From: a virus
IMG/VR virus record: IMGVR_UViG_3300017714_000071
Location: 1 to 32,968 of that record
Length of the DNA stretch: 32,968 bases
Reading direction: 5' to 3' (one strand)
In this document: in pieces, positions 5,767 to 10,918 of the stretch
Numbering within the stretch: the stretch's first letter is position 1
Layout: every line of letters begins with the position of its first letter
Made by a program: the position numbers and the translations under genes
Notes under the pieces: model-generated
What the model was told of the DNA's origin: nothing
Database searches by the model: none
The model's input: the letters and a program-made list of their open reading frames with translations, nothing else

Positions 5767-7630
5767 TTCGACTTCTATCGGTCGCGATATATTAACAGCC
5801 GCAGATCAAGCCGCCGTACAAACTATCGTCGGCACTTCCGGTGTAAATGTCGCCGCCGATTACGTGTGGACTGGAGATCACACGTTTGATAAGACCGTAG
5901 TGCTTAAATCATCAAACTGGGATAGCGTAAATGGCATAATCAATCAACCTAGCATTTCAGGCTTTACGTTTTTAGCTTTCAACGGCAGCAACGTATTCCG
6001 AGCGTCTGCGATTGACTTTATACCAATGTCAAACAACACAAAGGCATTGGGTCGTTCTGACTTACGCTTTTCAGATGTTTTTGCAGTCGATGGAAATTTT
6101 TCAGGAGACGTTTCGGCAAATGCTTTTTCTGGTGACGGATCAGCCTTAACAAACCTACCCGCATCAAACCCATTTAACCAAACGCTTAACACAACCGATG
6201 ACCCTACTTTTGACGCACTGACTGTGACCTCCGTCGCAGGCGATGGAAGTGGTCTTACCAACCTTCCCAATCCGTTCAACCAAACGCTCAACACAACAAG
6301 CAATCCCACTTTTGCTGCGTTAACAGTTACCTCTGTCGCAGGAGATGGAAGTGGGTTGACTAACCTCCCGTCGAGTAACCCGTTCAACCAAACGCTTAAT
6401 ACAACAAGCAATCCCACTTTTGCTGCGTTAACAGTTACCTCTGTCGCAGGAGATGGAAGCGGTCTTACTGGAGTTCCAGCAAGCAACTTTTTCAACCAAT
6501 CATTAAATACAACCGATGACCCTACTTTTGACGCATTGACTGTAACCAGCGTTTCCGGCTCGGTAACAACTGCTTCAATAACGTCAGTCGGCAATATTGT
6601 GACGACCGTTCCTAGCAGCGGGCAGCTGCAGTTCTACTACGGTGCAAATCCAATGTACCTAGCTTCAGCGACCGAGTTTCGACCCGCTGGAGCGTCAACA
6701 CTTGTCGATCTTGGAAGCTCGACTAGACGATGGAACAATGCCTTCTGTGTCAATGGTTCATTTACTGGGAACGTCATCGCTGAAACCGGATCAGTTTTAA
6801 AAGTGTTTAACTTAGGCACTGAAGGAGACGATCACTTAGAGTATTTGCAGGGCAGGTGGATTGCCAATGACTTCTACCTCGGAACAAAAAGTCTAGGCGA
6901 TGGGGTTGCTCGATCTATTTACTTGCAGCACGACTCGCAAAACAGAGTTTTCATTGGGGCTTCCGAGGTTAAATTTTACCGCGCAATTCAGCCCTCTACC
7001 AATGGAACTATTGCTTGCGGAGACTCCAGCTTAAAGTGGTCAAACGTCCACTCAGTCGCAGGAACATTCACAGGCGATGTATCGGCAAATGCTTTTACAG
7101 GCGATGGTAGCGGATTAACAAACTTACCTTCGCCCACTGTAGCAAACGACTCCATTGACAGCCAACATTATGTTGACGGGTCTATCGACACAGCACATAT
7201 TGGCGACGATCAAGTAACCGCCGCAAAACTGGCAGACACCTCGGTAAGTGCGGGTTCATACACGAACGCAAGTATCACGGTGGACGCTCAGGGCAGGTTG
7301 ACGGCTGCTTCCAGTGGCACTGGTGGTGGCGGTGGCATTTCTGACATGAGGCTGAAAGATGACATATTTAATCTGGAAAACTCATTAGATCGGGTTATGA
7401 AAATCTTTCCAAGGAGTTTTGTCTGGAAAGATGGATACAGCAATGTCCACGACAACAAAGGAAAAGATTTCGGGTTTTTAGCTCAAGAAGTAGAGATTTC
7501 AGAACCAACTTTGGTGGGCAAGCACATGGACTATAAAACTGTCGAATATGAAAAATTTGTCCCGCTATTGGTTGGTGCAATAAAAGAGCTAAAGATAGAG
7601 ATAGAACAACTAAAGGGGAGCAAAAATTGA
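5729..7630 (+). CDS. Tail fibre with self-cleaving S74 chaperone domain
   Basis: A 633-residue protein. The N-terminal part (1-145) is probably the attachment region. Residues about 146-290 hold tandem 34-36-residue repeats of the pattern NPFNQTLNTT..PTF.ALTVTSVAGDGSGLTNLP, and the GDGSxLTNLP motif recurs near 450-470. The last 96 residues are an intramolecular chaperone (peptidase S74). Ser538 and Lys543, five apart as in the known Ser-Lys dyad of endosialidase-type chaperones, predict cleavage just before Ser538 after trimer folding. A coiled coil (about 612-628) ends it. AAGGA precedes the ATG. The location between terminase and portal, not after the tape measure, is unusual. Confidence 0.88.
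   Translation: MGHIAIVSPQIVDSTSIGRDILTAADQAAVQTIVGTSGVNVAADYVWTGDHTFDKTVVLKSSNWDSVNGIINQPSISGFTFLAFNGSNVFRASAIDFIPMSNNTKALGRSDLRFSDVFAVDGNFSGDVSANAFSGDGSALTNLPASNPFNQTLNTTDDPTFDALTVTSVAGDGSGLTNLPNPFNQTLNTTSNPTFAALTVTSVAGDGSGLTNLPSSNPFNQTLNTTSNPTFAALTVTSVAGDGSGLTGVPASNFFNQSLNTTDDPTFDALTVTSVSGSVTTASITSVGNIVTTVPSSGQLQFYYGANPMYLASATEFRPAGASTLVDLGSSTRRWNNAFCVNGSFTGNVIAETGSVLKVFNLGTEGDDHLEYLQGRWIANDFYLGTKSLGDGVARSIYLQHDSQNRVFIGASEVKFYRAIQPSTNGTIACGDSSLKWSNVHSVAGTFTGDVSANAFTGDGSGLTNLPSPTVANDSIDSQHYVDGSIDTAHIGDDQVTAAKLADTSVSAGSYTNASITVDAQGRLTAASSGTGGGGGISDMRLKDDIFNLENSLDRVMKIFPRSFVWKDGYSNVHDNKGKDFGFLAQEVEISEPTLVGKHMDYKTVEYEKFVPLLVGAIKELKIEIEQLKGSKN
6150..6560 (+). repeat. Tandem coding repeats in the tail fibre
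   Basis: Four copies of a unit of about 102-108 bases encode the fibre's repeat motif. Copies two and three share an identical stretch of about 59 bases (6293-6351 and 6401-6459, offset 108). This suggests recent duplication and makes the array prone to gain or loss of units. Confidence 0.8.
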
Positions 7631-7782
7631 ACGAAAACAAGCAGCATCTTCAAGTACTTTCAATTCAACTTGAAACTCTCGCAGAGCTAGAGTCTGTCAA
7701 GAAATTCTTAACGCTACAGCAGAAGGCTCAGATGCTTTCGCAACTAATTAAGAAAGATGAGGAATCAAATGAGCAAATATGA
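7627..7782 (+). CDS. Small charged protein with TTG start
   Basis: A 51-residue protein beginning with TTG, overlapping the fibre stop as TTGA. An excellent ribosome site AGGGGAG (7614-7620) lies six bases upstream, which decides the start. The sequence is helical and charged (QHLQVLSIQLETLAELESVKK), with no membrane segment or cysteine. It overlaps the next gene's start by 14 bases. It could be a fibre assembly helper by position only. Confidence 0.6.
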   Translation: MNENKQHLQVLSIQLETLAELESVKKFLTLQQKAQMLSQLIKKDEESNEQI

Positions 7783-8158
7783 AGTACTACCAAGCAGCCC
7801 AGATGCGGCTGGTCAACTTAACGACATCCTAACTCGCGCAGACCGTGAGCTAAAACGGCAAATTCAGTCTTGGATGCAGCAAGTTGACATTTGCTGGTGT
7901 TGCCCTGTCACTCATGGCGACTCGGCTCGATCTATGGAAGATATGCAGGCCATTATCGACTCAGATTTTGAAAAGTTTCAGATGCTACTCACTGACAGTG
8001 CCGCACAAGCAGCACACTTTATGTCGATTGACAGAGAGGCTTTTTTAGAAATGACTGAGCCACGTCACCTTACTGAAGGTGCATACACTTGGGCAGAGGG
8101 GGAATTGACATTAGTATCATTGCGACCTGAGTGGGACGCACCAGCAGAAGAGGCTTAA
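7769..8158 (+). CDS. Hypothetical protein with CWCC motif
   Basis: A 129-residue acidic protein, not recognised. The start at 7769 is preferred because GAGGAA lies five bases upstream; an ATG at 7757 would add four residues with a poorer site. It contains DICWCCP at about residue 40 and many methionines. The C-terminal part (EGELTLVSLRPEWD) looks like a short beta hairpin. It lies between the fibre and a beta-rich structural protein, so a virion or fibre accessory role is possible. Confidence 0.6.
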   Translation: MSKYEVLPSSPDAAGQLNDILTRADRELKRQIQSWMQQVDICWCCPVTHGDSARSMEDMQAIIDSDFEKFQMLLTDSAAQAAHFMSIDREAFLEMTEPRHLTEGAYTWAEGELTLVSLRPEWDAPAEEA

Positions 8159-8162
8159 TCCG

Positions 8163-8870
8163 ATGGCGACACAGTATGTAATCGCAACAGGAGCTGCGAG
8201 CAGAACATTAACTGCAAAGCTCTACAACGTGTCAACGTCTGCCGTTGTTTCTACTGCTACTGTAGTTGCTGAAGACGTAGCCGCGACTGGAATATACCGC
8301 TGCACTTTCTCAGAGTCGTCGGCTCTTACGGGCTCCCACAGAATAGTTCTTACAGACAGTGTTGCGGGAGTATCTATTGCGGTGTGGAATGTTGTCCTGA
8401 CAGGCACTGACCTAGAGGTTATACAAGCAGCAGAGTTTGCTAACGTCACAGGTGCTGGGGACGCTACCGCCGCCTCACAAGCCGCAATATTAGCAAAGAT
8501 CACCCCCATAACAACTGTATATACAGCACAGCCTGCAAGCGAGATAATAAACTTAATACGAGGCGATGCCTATGACGGAACATCTAACGCAAAACTAACA
8601 TGGACGGCCTCGAAAAGCGTACATGGGCAGACAGCAAACTTCACTATCAGGGACGGTAAGGATGCAATTATCCTTGACCAAGACACGACTGGTGTTACAG
8701 CAACTGCTACGGGGAGCTCGGTTGAAGTATCCTTATCTACGGCAGCAACTAAGTTATTAGACCCTGCCGTTTCAATGTTTAAATTTGATGTTGAAATTCA
8801 ATTTTCTGCAGACTCACGATGGACGATTATTAAAGGAAACGTCTACGTAGAAAGCGACGAATCTAGATGA
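8163..8870 (+). CDS. Beta-rich putative virion appendage protein
   Basis: A 235-residue Ala/Thr/Val/Ser-rich protein. Residues 1-85 look like a beta-sandwich domain (TLTAKLYNVST..VVSTATVV) similar to sugar-binding or Ig-like modules of tail appendages. Residues about 120-235 form a second one (INLIRGDAYDG..LTWTAS) ending in RWTIIKGNVYVESD, a strand pattern common in baseplate proteins. AAGAGG precedes the ATG. Its stop overlaps the next ATG as ATGA, implying translational coupling to the thioredoxin-like gene. No exact family was recognised. Confidence 0.6.
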   Translation: MATQYVIATGAASRTLTAKLYNVSTSAVVSTATVVAEDVAATGIYRCTFSESSALTGSHRIVLTDSVAGVSIAVWNVVLTGTDLEVIQAAEFANVTGAGDATAASQAAILAKITPITTVYTAQPASEIINLIRGDAYDGTSNAKLTWTASKSVHGQTANFTIRDGKDAIILDQDTTGVTATATGSSVEVSLSTAATKLLDPAVSMFKFDVEIQFSADSRWTIIKGNVYVESDESR

Positions 8871-9244
8871 TAAAAAAACTATTATTAGTATTATTGTTAA
8901 TCGGGGCATCGGTTAGTTCACTTAAAGCAGATATTTTTGACGAATACCTGCCAGCCGCCAAAGAAAGCCTCAGAAGCAAAAAGACGCTAATAGTGGTCAT
9001 AGGTGCTGAAAATTGGTGACATACGTGCGTAAGATTTCAGTGTGAAATTAAAAGAAACCCTTCGGTTGCAGCTGGCGTGAACCTTGCATTTGAAGAGTAC
9101 GACACCGAGTGGGGGAAAAAACTATATTTAGGGAGAACAGTCCCTGCTCTAATTAAATATAAGTGGGACGGCAAGCAATGGAAAAAAATTGTTCGCATTG
9201 GCTATTTGTCACAGAAAAATCTAAAAAGGTGGATAAATGAGTAG
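8867..9244 (+). CDS. Exported thioredoxin-like protein with in-frame UGA, putative selenoprotein
   Basis: The frame from ATG 8867 to TAG 9242 has 125 sense codons if TGA at 9017-9019 (codon 51) is read through. Residues 1-21 are a signal peptide (KK, then a Leu/Val core, ending LKA). The rest is a thioredoxin fold: strand TLIVVIGA (40-47), then W50-U51-H52-T53-C54 at the exact place of the WCxxC active site, and later TVPALI with the cis-proline. TGA thus replaces the first catalytic Cys, the usual place of selenocysteine in redox selenoproteins. The base after UGA is C, and a SECIS-like hairpin lies downstream. It couples to flanking genes by ATGA and an eight-base overlap. Alternatives are a TGC/TGT-to-TGA mutation or sequencing error, which would make it a broken gene; reading stops at residue 50 if the UGA is not recoded. 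Confidence 0.75.
9033..9049 (+). promoter_or_regulatory. Candidate bacterial SECIS hairpin
   Basis: GATTTCA pairs with TGAAATT (one G-U, six Watson-Crick pairs) around a GTG triloop at 9040-9042. The loop starts 20 bases after the UGA at 9017-9019. As I recall it, the bacterial SECIS consensus wants an apical loop 16-37 bases after UGA with a G among its first two bases, and this hairpin meets that. It would bind SelB to deliver Sec-tRNA. Confidence 0.5.
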
Positions 9245-9452
9245 CAGGACACAGGCTGACATAAAGCAAGCTATTTCTGACCTAGAGACACTGCTTGATT
9301 CAGCGACGAAAATGGTGACGCAAGACGGCGAAACTGTACAGTTTGACCTAGAAGCTGCTAATTCACGATTGCGAGACCTACAAGCAGAGCTTGCTCTTTT
9401 GCAGGGGAAGAAAACAAGACGACCTTTATTCAACCGAATTGATTTAAGCTAA
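9237..9452 (+). CDS. Head-tail connector, gpW-like
   Basis: A 71-residue protein matching the gpW pattern in length and form. A helix (IKQAISDLETLLDS) is followed by a short hairpin containing VTQDGETVQFD and a second helix (LRDLQAELALLQG). gpW plugs the portal from below and lets the tail join. It lies directly before the portal gene, as W does in lambda. It overlaps the preceding thioredoxin-like gene by eight bases, and no strong ribosome site of its own was noted. Confidence 0.75.
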   Translation: MSSRTQADIKQAISDLETLLDSATKMVTQDGETVQFDLEAANSRLRDLQAELALLQGKKTRRPLFNRIDLS

Positions 9453-9463
9453 GGAGACCTGTT

Positions 9464-10918
9464 ATGGATTGGCTCGACGATAGCCAAGGCGCGATAGACT
9501 TCGGCTATGATGCCACAGAGTCAACCAAAAACCGCAAGGCTCCTAGACGGAAACTTCGGCATGAAGATGAGCACCTAACTAGCAACGGAAGAAAAAACTT
9601 ACTCGGAACTACTAGAGACCTCAGAAGAAATGAGATTTCTGCTAGGTGGGTTTTACGTAAGCACATTGACTTTGTCGTAAAGCATAATTTTCAACCCAAC
9701 ACAGGCAGGGAAGATCTTGACTCGGAGTTGAAAAAGTTCTACTCAATGGCCGCAAAAAAGGAAAATTTTGACGTAAGCGGTCGCTACAACCTTGATAATT
9801 TTATGCGTATTTTAGAGGCTGCAAGAGTTATTGATGGTGACATCTATTGTGTCAGGCAGAGAGGCGGATACTTACAGCCTATCGAGGGAGACCGGATTCG
9901 ACAGCCCACAGAAAAAAGTGTTGGAATAACACCGTCCAACGGCTATACCACAGGATACCTTCCTGACTGGTACTGTGGGGTGAAAGTAGATTCTACCGGA
10001 AGGCACAAACAGTATGCAGTCCATAAGAGGCACCAGACTGGGTTTGAGTTTGAAAGATTTATTTCCGCAAAGAAAGTTATTCCTTTTGGGTTTTGGGATC
10101 GTTTTGACCAGACGAGAGGAATCTCACCACTAGCCTCTGTCATAAACAAAGTTCAAGACTTGAACGAAAGCTATGACTACGCACTTGCAAAAGCAAAAGT
10201 TGCACAGCTTTTTGCTATGGCGATTACTAGAGAAGCTAAGATGGGATTAGCAGACGATGACGACGATAGGTCAGATTCAGATGCGAGCTCGGCAGTAAAC
10301 TTTGACAAAGGTGCTATGGTTCTCGACCTTGACGAAGGTGAGGACGCTAAGTTCCTTGCATCGGCAACCCCAGAGACCGCCACTCAGGACTTCTGGAAAG
10401 ATATGCTGGCTCAAATATGTAAGTCGCTGAATATACCCTATTCTTTCTGGGACGAAAGTTACACAAACTTTAACGGCTCTCGGACAGCATTGATTCTCTA
10501 CCTTAGATCTTGCGAGCAAGACAGGGAAGCACAGGTTGCTTTCAGGAACGACTGGTTTAGCTGGAGGCTAAAGATTGGAATCCTAAAGGGTGAAATTCAA
10601 CTTCCCGTTGATTTCCAAATAGACCCCTCGCAATGGATGTGGATTCCAGATGGGCTTCAATATTGGGACACACTAAAAGAAGCATCCGCTGACGAGAAGT
10701 TAATCAACATGGGACTTAGGACACGAACTGAGATTAGGCAAGAACGATACGGGGATGAGTGGACAGATGTGGCAAAAAGATTGGCAGAAGAGAAGGCTTT
10801 AATGCAAGAGCTTGACATTCTTCCTGCTGACATGCAGCCTCCCTCTGAGCCACTACCTGAGATTGTTGAAGTACCCGAAAAACAGAACCAGAAAAAGGAA
10901 AACGAAGATGGCGAGTAA
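9464..10918 (+). CDS. Portal protein, lambda GpB family
   Basis: A 484-residue portal, the dodecameric ring at the capsid vertex through which DNA enters. Typical lambda-type features are the N-terminal 'R.LLGTTRDLRRNEISARWVLRKHIDFVV' segment (about 44-70), the 'GDIYCVRQRGGYLQPIEGDRIRQP' strand region (about 126-150), and 'IPFGFWDRFDQTRGISPLASVINKVQDL' (about 206-232) leading into the stem helices. A Glu/Lys-rich tail ends it. AAGGAGA precedes the ATG. It sits between gpW and the protease-scaffold gene, as in lambda. Confidence 0.9.
   Translation: MDWLDDSQGAIDFGYDATESTKNRKAPRRKLRHEDEHLTSNGRKNLLGTTRDLRRNEISARWVLRKHIDFVVKHNFQPNTGREDLDSELKKFYSMAAKKENFDVSGRYNLDNFMRILEAARVIDGDIYCVRQRGGYLQPIEGDRIRQPTEKSVGITPSNGYTTGYLPDWYCGVKVDSTGRHKQYAVHKRHQTGFEFERFISAKKVIPFGFWDRFDQTRGISPLASVINKVQDLNESYDYALAKAKVAQLFAMAITREAKMGLADDDDDRSDSDASSAVNFDKGAMVLDLDEGEDAKFLASATPETATQDFWKDMLAQICKSLNIPYSFWDESYTNFNGSRTALILYLRSCEQDREAQVAFRNDWFSWRLKIGILKGEIQLPVDFQIDPSQWMWIPDGLQYWDTLKEASADEKLINMGLRTRTEIRQERYGDEWTDVAKRLAEEKALMQELDILPADMQPPSEPLPEIVEVPEKQNQKKENEDGE

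Follow-up and report, generated by a model that had tools for sequence, protein, structure and literature searches.

A probable selenoprotein of the thioredoxin fold encoded among the head and packaging genes of uncultivated tailed phages

Selenocysteine (Sec) very likely occupies the active site of a thioredoxin-like protein encoded by a group of uncultivated tailed phages. The gene lies in IMG/VR virus record IMGVR_UViG_3300017714_000071, which was analysed over its positions 1 to 32,968 (32,968 nt, hereafter the window). The account that explains the data best as a whole, and in which we place considerable confidence, is that an accessory gene located among head and packaging genes would encode an exported thioredoxin-fold selenoprotein, whose UGA codon 51 would be read as selenocysteine by the SelB and tRNA-Sec of the host, guided by a SECIS hairpin inside the coding sequence, 20 nt downstream. 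A signal peptide would direct the protein out of the cytoplasm, where its U-x-x-C site would serve late in infection as an oxidoreductase of thiols and disulfides, with reduction the most likely direction. The Sec allele would have had a single origin in this family and would have spread by phage recombination, in exchange with Cys alleles.

The gene occupies 8867–9244 on the plus strand, as do all window features described below. With TGA read as a residue (U in the translation) the frame has 125 codons and contains one TGA only, at codon 51 (9017–9019), which sits in a W-U-H-T-C motif and is followed by 74 open codons that include TVP. The motif supplies the presumed resolving cysteine C54 (9026–9028), and TVP, a case of the T/S-V-P motif, supplies P93 (9143–9145), the predicted cis-proline of the thioredoxin fold; both C54 and VP are invariant in 12 of 12 relatives. 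Residues 1–21 (8867–8929) read by eye as a signal peptide, with a basic start and a hydrophobic run, cut probably after LKA. Relatives have A-x-A-like sites after the hydrophobic run (AKA, AQA, AGA), and this consistency across the family points to an extracytoplasmic location. The start codon at 8867 (ATG) shares an ATGA with the stop of the upstream gene (8163–8870; phage family phrog_1084 of unknown function), and the TAG at 9242–9244 overlaps the ATG at 9237 of a downstream gene for 71 amino acids (9237–9452), with the same gene order in relatives. Overlaps of a few bases with both neighbours are as expected within an operon. The portal protein gene follows at 9464–10918 (phrog_21, E 3.3e–49), and according to PHROGs the major head and terminase genes are close as well; the gene is therefore probably expressed late. 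Re-reading of the sequence confirmed what an earlier note on this DNA had described, namely a frame interrupted solely by TGA within W-UGA-H-T-C, the 74 codons beyond it with their TVP cis-proline, and an end overlapping the start of the next gene. Elsewhere in the window, an Rfam int-alpA RNA (RF02996, 44.5 bits) lies at 877–944, just upstream of a small gene (965–1366), and no integrase was recognised near it. The region 1396–2658 encodes a 420-residue protein that is trypsin-like in appearance (GDSGSA) and has a lipoprotein-like signal, a coiled coil and a membrane segment; PHROGs gave no match for it.

A protein search returned one phage contig that is 74% identical and has TGA at the same codon. 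Further relatives were collected among IMG/VR phage contigs by searching with the portal gene and scanning with TGA held open. Including the window, seven TGA forms were found (the window, L001, L004, L006, L010, L011 and L023), the six others in IMG/VR phage contigs at the same place near the portal gene and with the motif W-U-x-T-C. Five relatives are Cys forms (L005, L007, L009, L013 and L025), in which the codon is TGC or TGT and the motif W-C-x-P-C. The homologues that the earlier note had asked for, with Cys or U at position 51, thus exist in both versions, and none ends at residue 50. In L012 both neighbouring genes are present with no gene of this kind between them, and the thioredoxin gene is also missing beside the distant portal relatives L026–L028 and beside those in three genomes of the same phylum as an Opitutia metagenome-assembled genome (MAG) considered below; the gene is therefore accessory. 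Two motif patterns run over viral contigs returned only members of this group and four unrelated frames (L014, L015, L016 and L018, matching W-UGA-x-T-C), and a profile search with the C-terminal part added no member. Another contig without the thioredoxin gene, L022, has a tRNA-Thr gene (5888–5962, plus strand) just before its homologue of the window gene 8163–8870.

We then compared the coding sequence on both sides of the TGA among the seven TGA forms. Purifying selection after the TGA is as strong as before it (pN/pS 0.155 for codons 52–125 versus 0.169 for codons 23–50), and the differences after the TGA fall mainly at third codon positions (243/183/787 for first, second and third positions). 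Hence, the downstream sequence is translated and selected as a protein. The conservation past the UGA that the earlier note had called for is in this way borne out.

A putative bacterial SECIS hairpin was found at 9033–9049, starting at the 14th base after the UGA, with seven base pairs and the GUG loop (9040–9042) that had been noticed before; its distance from the UGA is 20 nt. The published bacterial consensus (PMC13188914) has a loop of 3–9 nt, a stem of 4–16 bp, a distance of 16–37 nt from the UGA, a G within the first two bases of the loop, as a rule with G or U next to it, and a minimum free energy of –7.5 kcal/mol or lower. A hairpin of fitting geometry is present in 7 of 7 TGA forms (6–7 bp, loop 3–5 nt, 19–20 nt from the UGA), with loops GUG, GGA, GGC, GGC, GGC, GGUCA and GUC, that is, G first and then G or U. 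A corresponding hairpin is present in none of the five Cys forms. The claim of a SECIS-like element just downstream of the UGA thus holds for the TGA forms, in spacing and loop alike. The window hairpin by itself is weak and would not convince alone: at –3.3 kcal/mol it is below the strength of the –7.5 criterion. Energy depends on the folded length, and the window gives –6.5 kcal/mol at 57 nt and –9.3 kcal/mol at 63 nt; folded over 57 nt, 6 of the 7 TGA forms reach –7.5 kcal/mol, which the window misses over 39–57 nt. Tests on single sequences were mostly non-significant alone. When codons were resampled with the protein fixed, the observed pairing was reached in 1 of 20,000 trials if the seven sequences are treated as independent, and in 429 of 20,000 under full dependence. 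Among 53 columns of conserved residues that allow a codon choice, only three use the same codon throughout the seven TGA forms; two of these lie in the stem arms (F57 TTT and E60 GAA). Codons 56–62 are also the seven-codon stretch least variable at third positions. Covariation is silent, with no two-sided compensatory change in the stem among the seven forms. Residues over the stem read V-R-F-Q/R-x-E-I in Sec forms versus R/K-K-M in Cys forms, a difference that a constraint from the hairpin on these residues would predict.

How, then, is UGA 51 read? The codon falls on the attacking position of the thioredoxin active site, where relatives have Cys, and we know of no reading of UGA in a bacterium other than selenocysteine that would keep a nucleophile there. 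Programmed stop readthrough, in which an ordinary amino acid such as Trp is inserted at a leaky UGA-C to give a short and a long product with no need for selenium, is unlikely, even though a C follows the UGA in 7 of 7 TGA forms, a context in which termination is considered weak, and a downstream stem-loop could promote readthrough too. Against it, the UGA falls on precisely the residue that is the catalytic Cys in relatives, and the hairpin agrees with the bacterial SECIS model in its spacing and in its G[G/U] loop. Moreover, a 50-residue product would stop before the active-site helix, and an ordinary residue at 51 would remove the nucleophile. Very unlikely, too, is a pair of genes in which a short exported peptide is followed by a second protein started inside the frame. 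The GTG at 9077 could start a frame of 55 amino acids, but L001, L006 and L011 have GTC or GTT in its place, so that this start lacks conservation, T53-C54-V55-R56 is conserved between the TGA and the GTG codon, and the Cys relatives are one continuous protein.

The remaining alternatives have almost no probability. Some phages and bacteria have reassigned TGA, and the phage or its host might read TGA generally as Trp or Gly. Against such a code, the 154 Trp codons among the 9,760 codons of the 38 assumed genes in the window are all TGG, these genes contain no in-frame TGA and 8 of the 38 end in TGA; the window has no tRNA gene, and the homologous residue is Cys rather than Trp or Gly. A scan of the window for other recoded TGA codons returned only frames that look like shadows of real genes. 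Had the stop been seen in one metagenomic contig alone, a sequencing error or a decaying pseudogene would be the default reading; its chance here is negligible: the same TGA stands in seven divergent contigs from different IMG records, which rules out a misread TGC, TGT or TGG at 9017–9019, and purifying selection downstream of the TGA excludes error, pseudogene and truncation alike. Overall, comparison among relatives strongly supports selenocysteine at codon 51, as the earlier note had proposed.

The structure model of the protein shows a thioredoxin fold (pLDDT 87.5, pTM 0.79) in which a helix (residues 52–63) follows directly after residue 51, and a Foldseek search with the model retrieved solved thioredoxins (E 1.3e–5). 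The family thus combines the fold, a UxxC or CxxC where the first active-site helix begins, and the invariant VP. Pfam Thioredoxin_7 matches 12 of 12 members, and the window protein itself is below the Pfam and NCBIfam cut-offs. Among NCBIfam models DsbH (NF043050) is the most frequent match, weak and at low scores in 12 of 12 members; membership in this disulfide reductase family was rejected at 13.2 of 190 bits, far under the curated cut-off. What the members have in common with DsbH-like disulfide reductases (NF043050; 2ju5, a thioredoxin disulfide isomerase) is a thioredoxin-like domain. They likewise have a thioredoxin domain in common with phage thioredoxins: phrog_22 is matched by 10 of 12 members, and the putative thioredoxin of Dinoroseobacter phage vBDshPR2C, which has Cys, matches only weakly (E 0.8). 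Thioredoxin-like selenoproteins of bacteria with a UxxC motif (Trx, PF00085; thiol:disulfide interchange protein, PF13098; PMC13188914) also come close: they have the same fold, Sec first in UxxC, an in-gene SECIS-like hairpin and Cys-containing relatives, as described or proposed here. Unlike these, the present gene is phage-encoded and located in a head/packaging operon. The W-U-x-T-C forms also have one residue more before W than the Cys forms. With no more than moderate confidence, we propose that the protein acts as an extracytoplasmic thiol-disulfide reductase late in infection, with phage or host envelope proteins, for example, as possible targets.

No selenocysteine genes of the phage's own were detected in the window, and neither a tRNA gene nor a match to the Rfam tRNA-Sec model was found there; therefore, the machinery of the host would have to be used. 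Neither the portal nor the terminase has a close relative among isolated phages. One Cys-form contig belongs to the MAG Opitutia bacterium NP117, membership in a MAG being no proof of host identity. No match to SelB in this MAG passed the cut-off: those below it look like other elongation factors, and a tRNA-Sec match proved to be tRNA-Ser(TGA) by ARAGORN. SelB was also absent from three further genomes with distant portal relatives. It was found in 18 of 188 genomes sampled from the class of the Opitutia MAG and in 1 of 42 genomes of its family; in that one genome a selA-like gene, selB and tRNA-Sec stand together on a short, possibly contaminating contig, and the genome has no relative of the thioredoxin gene. 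A Sec-using Verrucomicrobiota host is possible for the Sec-form phages.

The Sec and Cys versions are distributed differently in the protein tree and in the portal tree, which was used as the backbone. All Sec forms group into a single clade of the protein tree (support 100/99). The portal tree, parts of which have weak support, intersperses Sec with Cys forms and needs 4 changes, of which strongly supported branches force only 2. A single Sec clade scattered over the portal tree suggests allele exchange, and on the simplest reading the Sec allele arose once and was exchanged with Cys alleles by recombination among phages. The pair L006 (Sec) and L009 (Cys) is a case in point, with DNA identity of 84–86% over the portal and downstream genes (84% for portal) versus 55% in the thioredoxin gene. 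The occurrence of the Sec gene (L006, 2918–3295) and the Cys gene (L009, 3559–3930) on such close backbones suggests that the site next to the portal gene is a hot spot of recombination. The segment upstream of the selenoprotein gene (7757–8866) is 83% identical in DNA to L023, and the portal and head genes of the two phages are 62–64% identical; this suggests that the upstream module was recently exchanged between them. More tentatively, the phage group may keep a swappable Sec/Cys allele pair of one accessory redox gene, exchanged by recombination, in which the allele that persists follows the Sec capability of the host. If this is true, the fitness benefit of the gene would depend on selenium, and the gene would serve as a marker for the Sec capability of the host.

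Proven viral selenoproteins are reported from poxviruses only, namely the glutathione peroxidases of molluscum contagiosum and fowlpox viruses (PMC6769590). These are virus-encoded and use the host Sec machinery, as proposed here, but they belong to eukaryotic viruses, a eukaryotic SECIS and the GPx family, whereas the present case is a phage gene with a bacterial-type SECIS and a thioredoxin-like product. Neither phages nor viruses are named in a 2026 inventory of the prokaryotic selenoproteome (PMC13188914). In a marine survey of trace elements, viral sequences were few or absent except in three families, none of them selenoproteins (PMC9402790). A text search, the scope of which did not extend to subscription papers and preprints, found no phage selenoprotein. 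Apparently, this is the first well-supported family of phage-encoded selenoproteins, and a known kind of protein in a new kind of carrier. Standard phage annotation splits such genes in two. Conservation of Sec and of the SECIS in a phage family that also has Cys alleles would demonstrate that the 21st amino acid of the host is used by phages, and phage fitness would be tied to selenium and to host Sec capability. The natural Sec/Cys allele pair would also offer a test of what selenocysteine buys.
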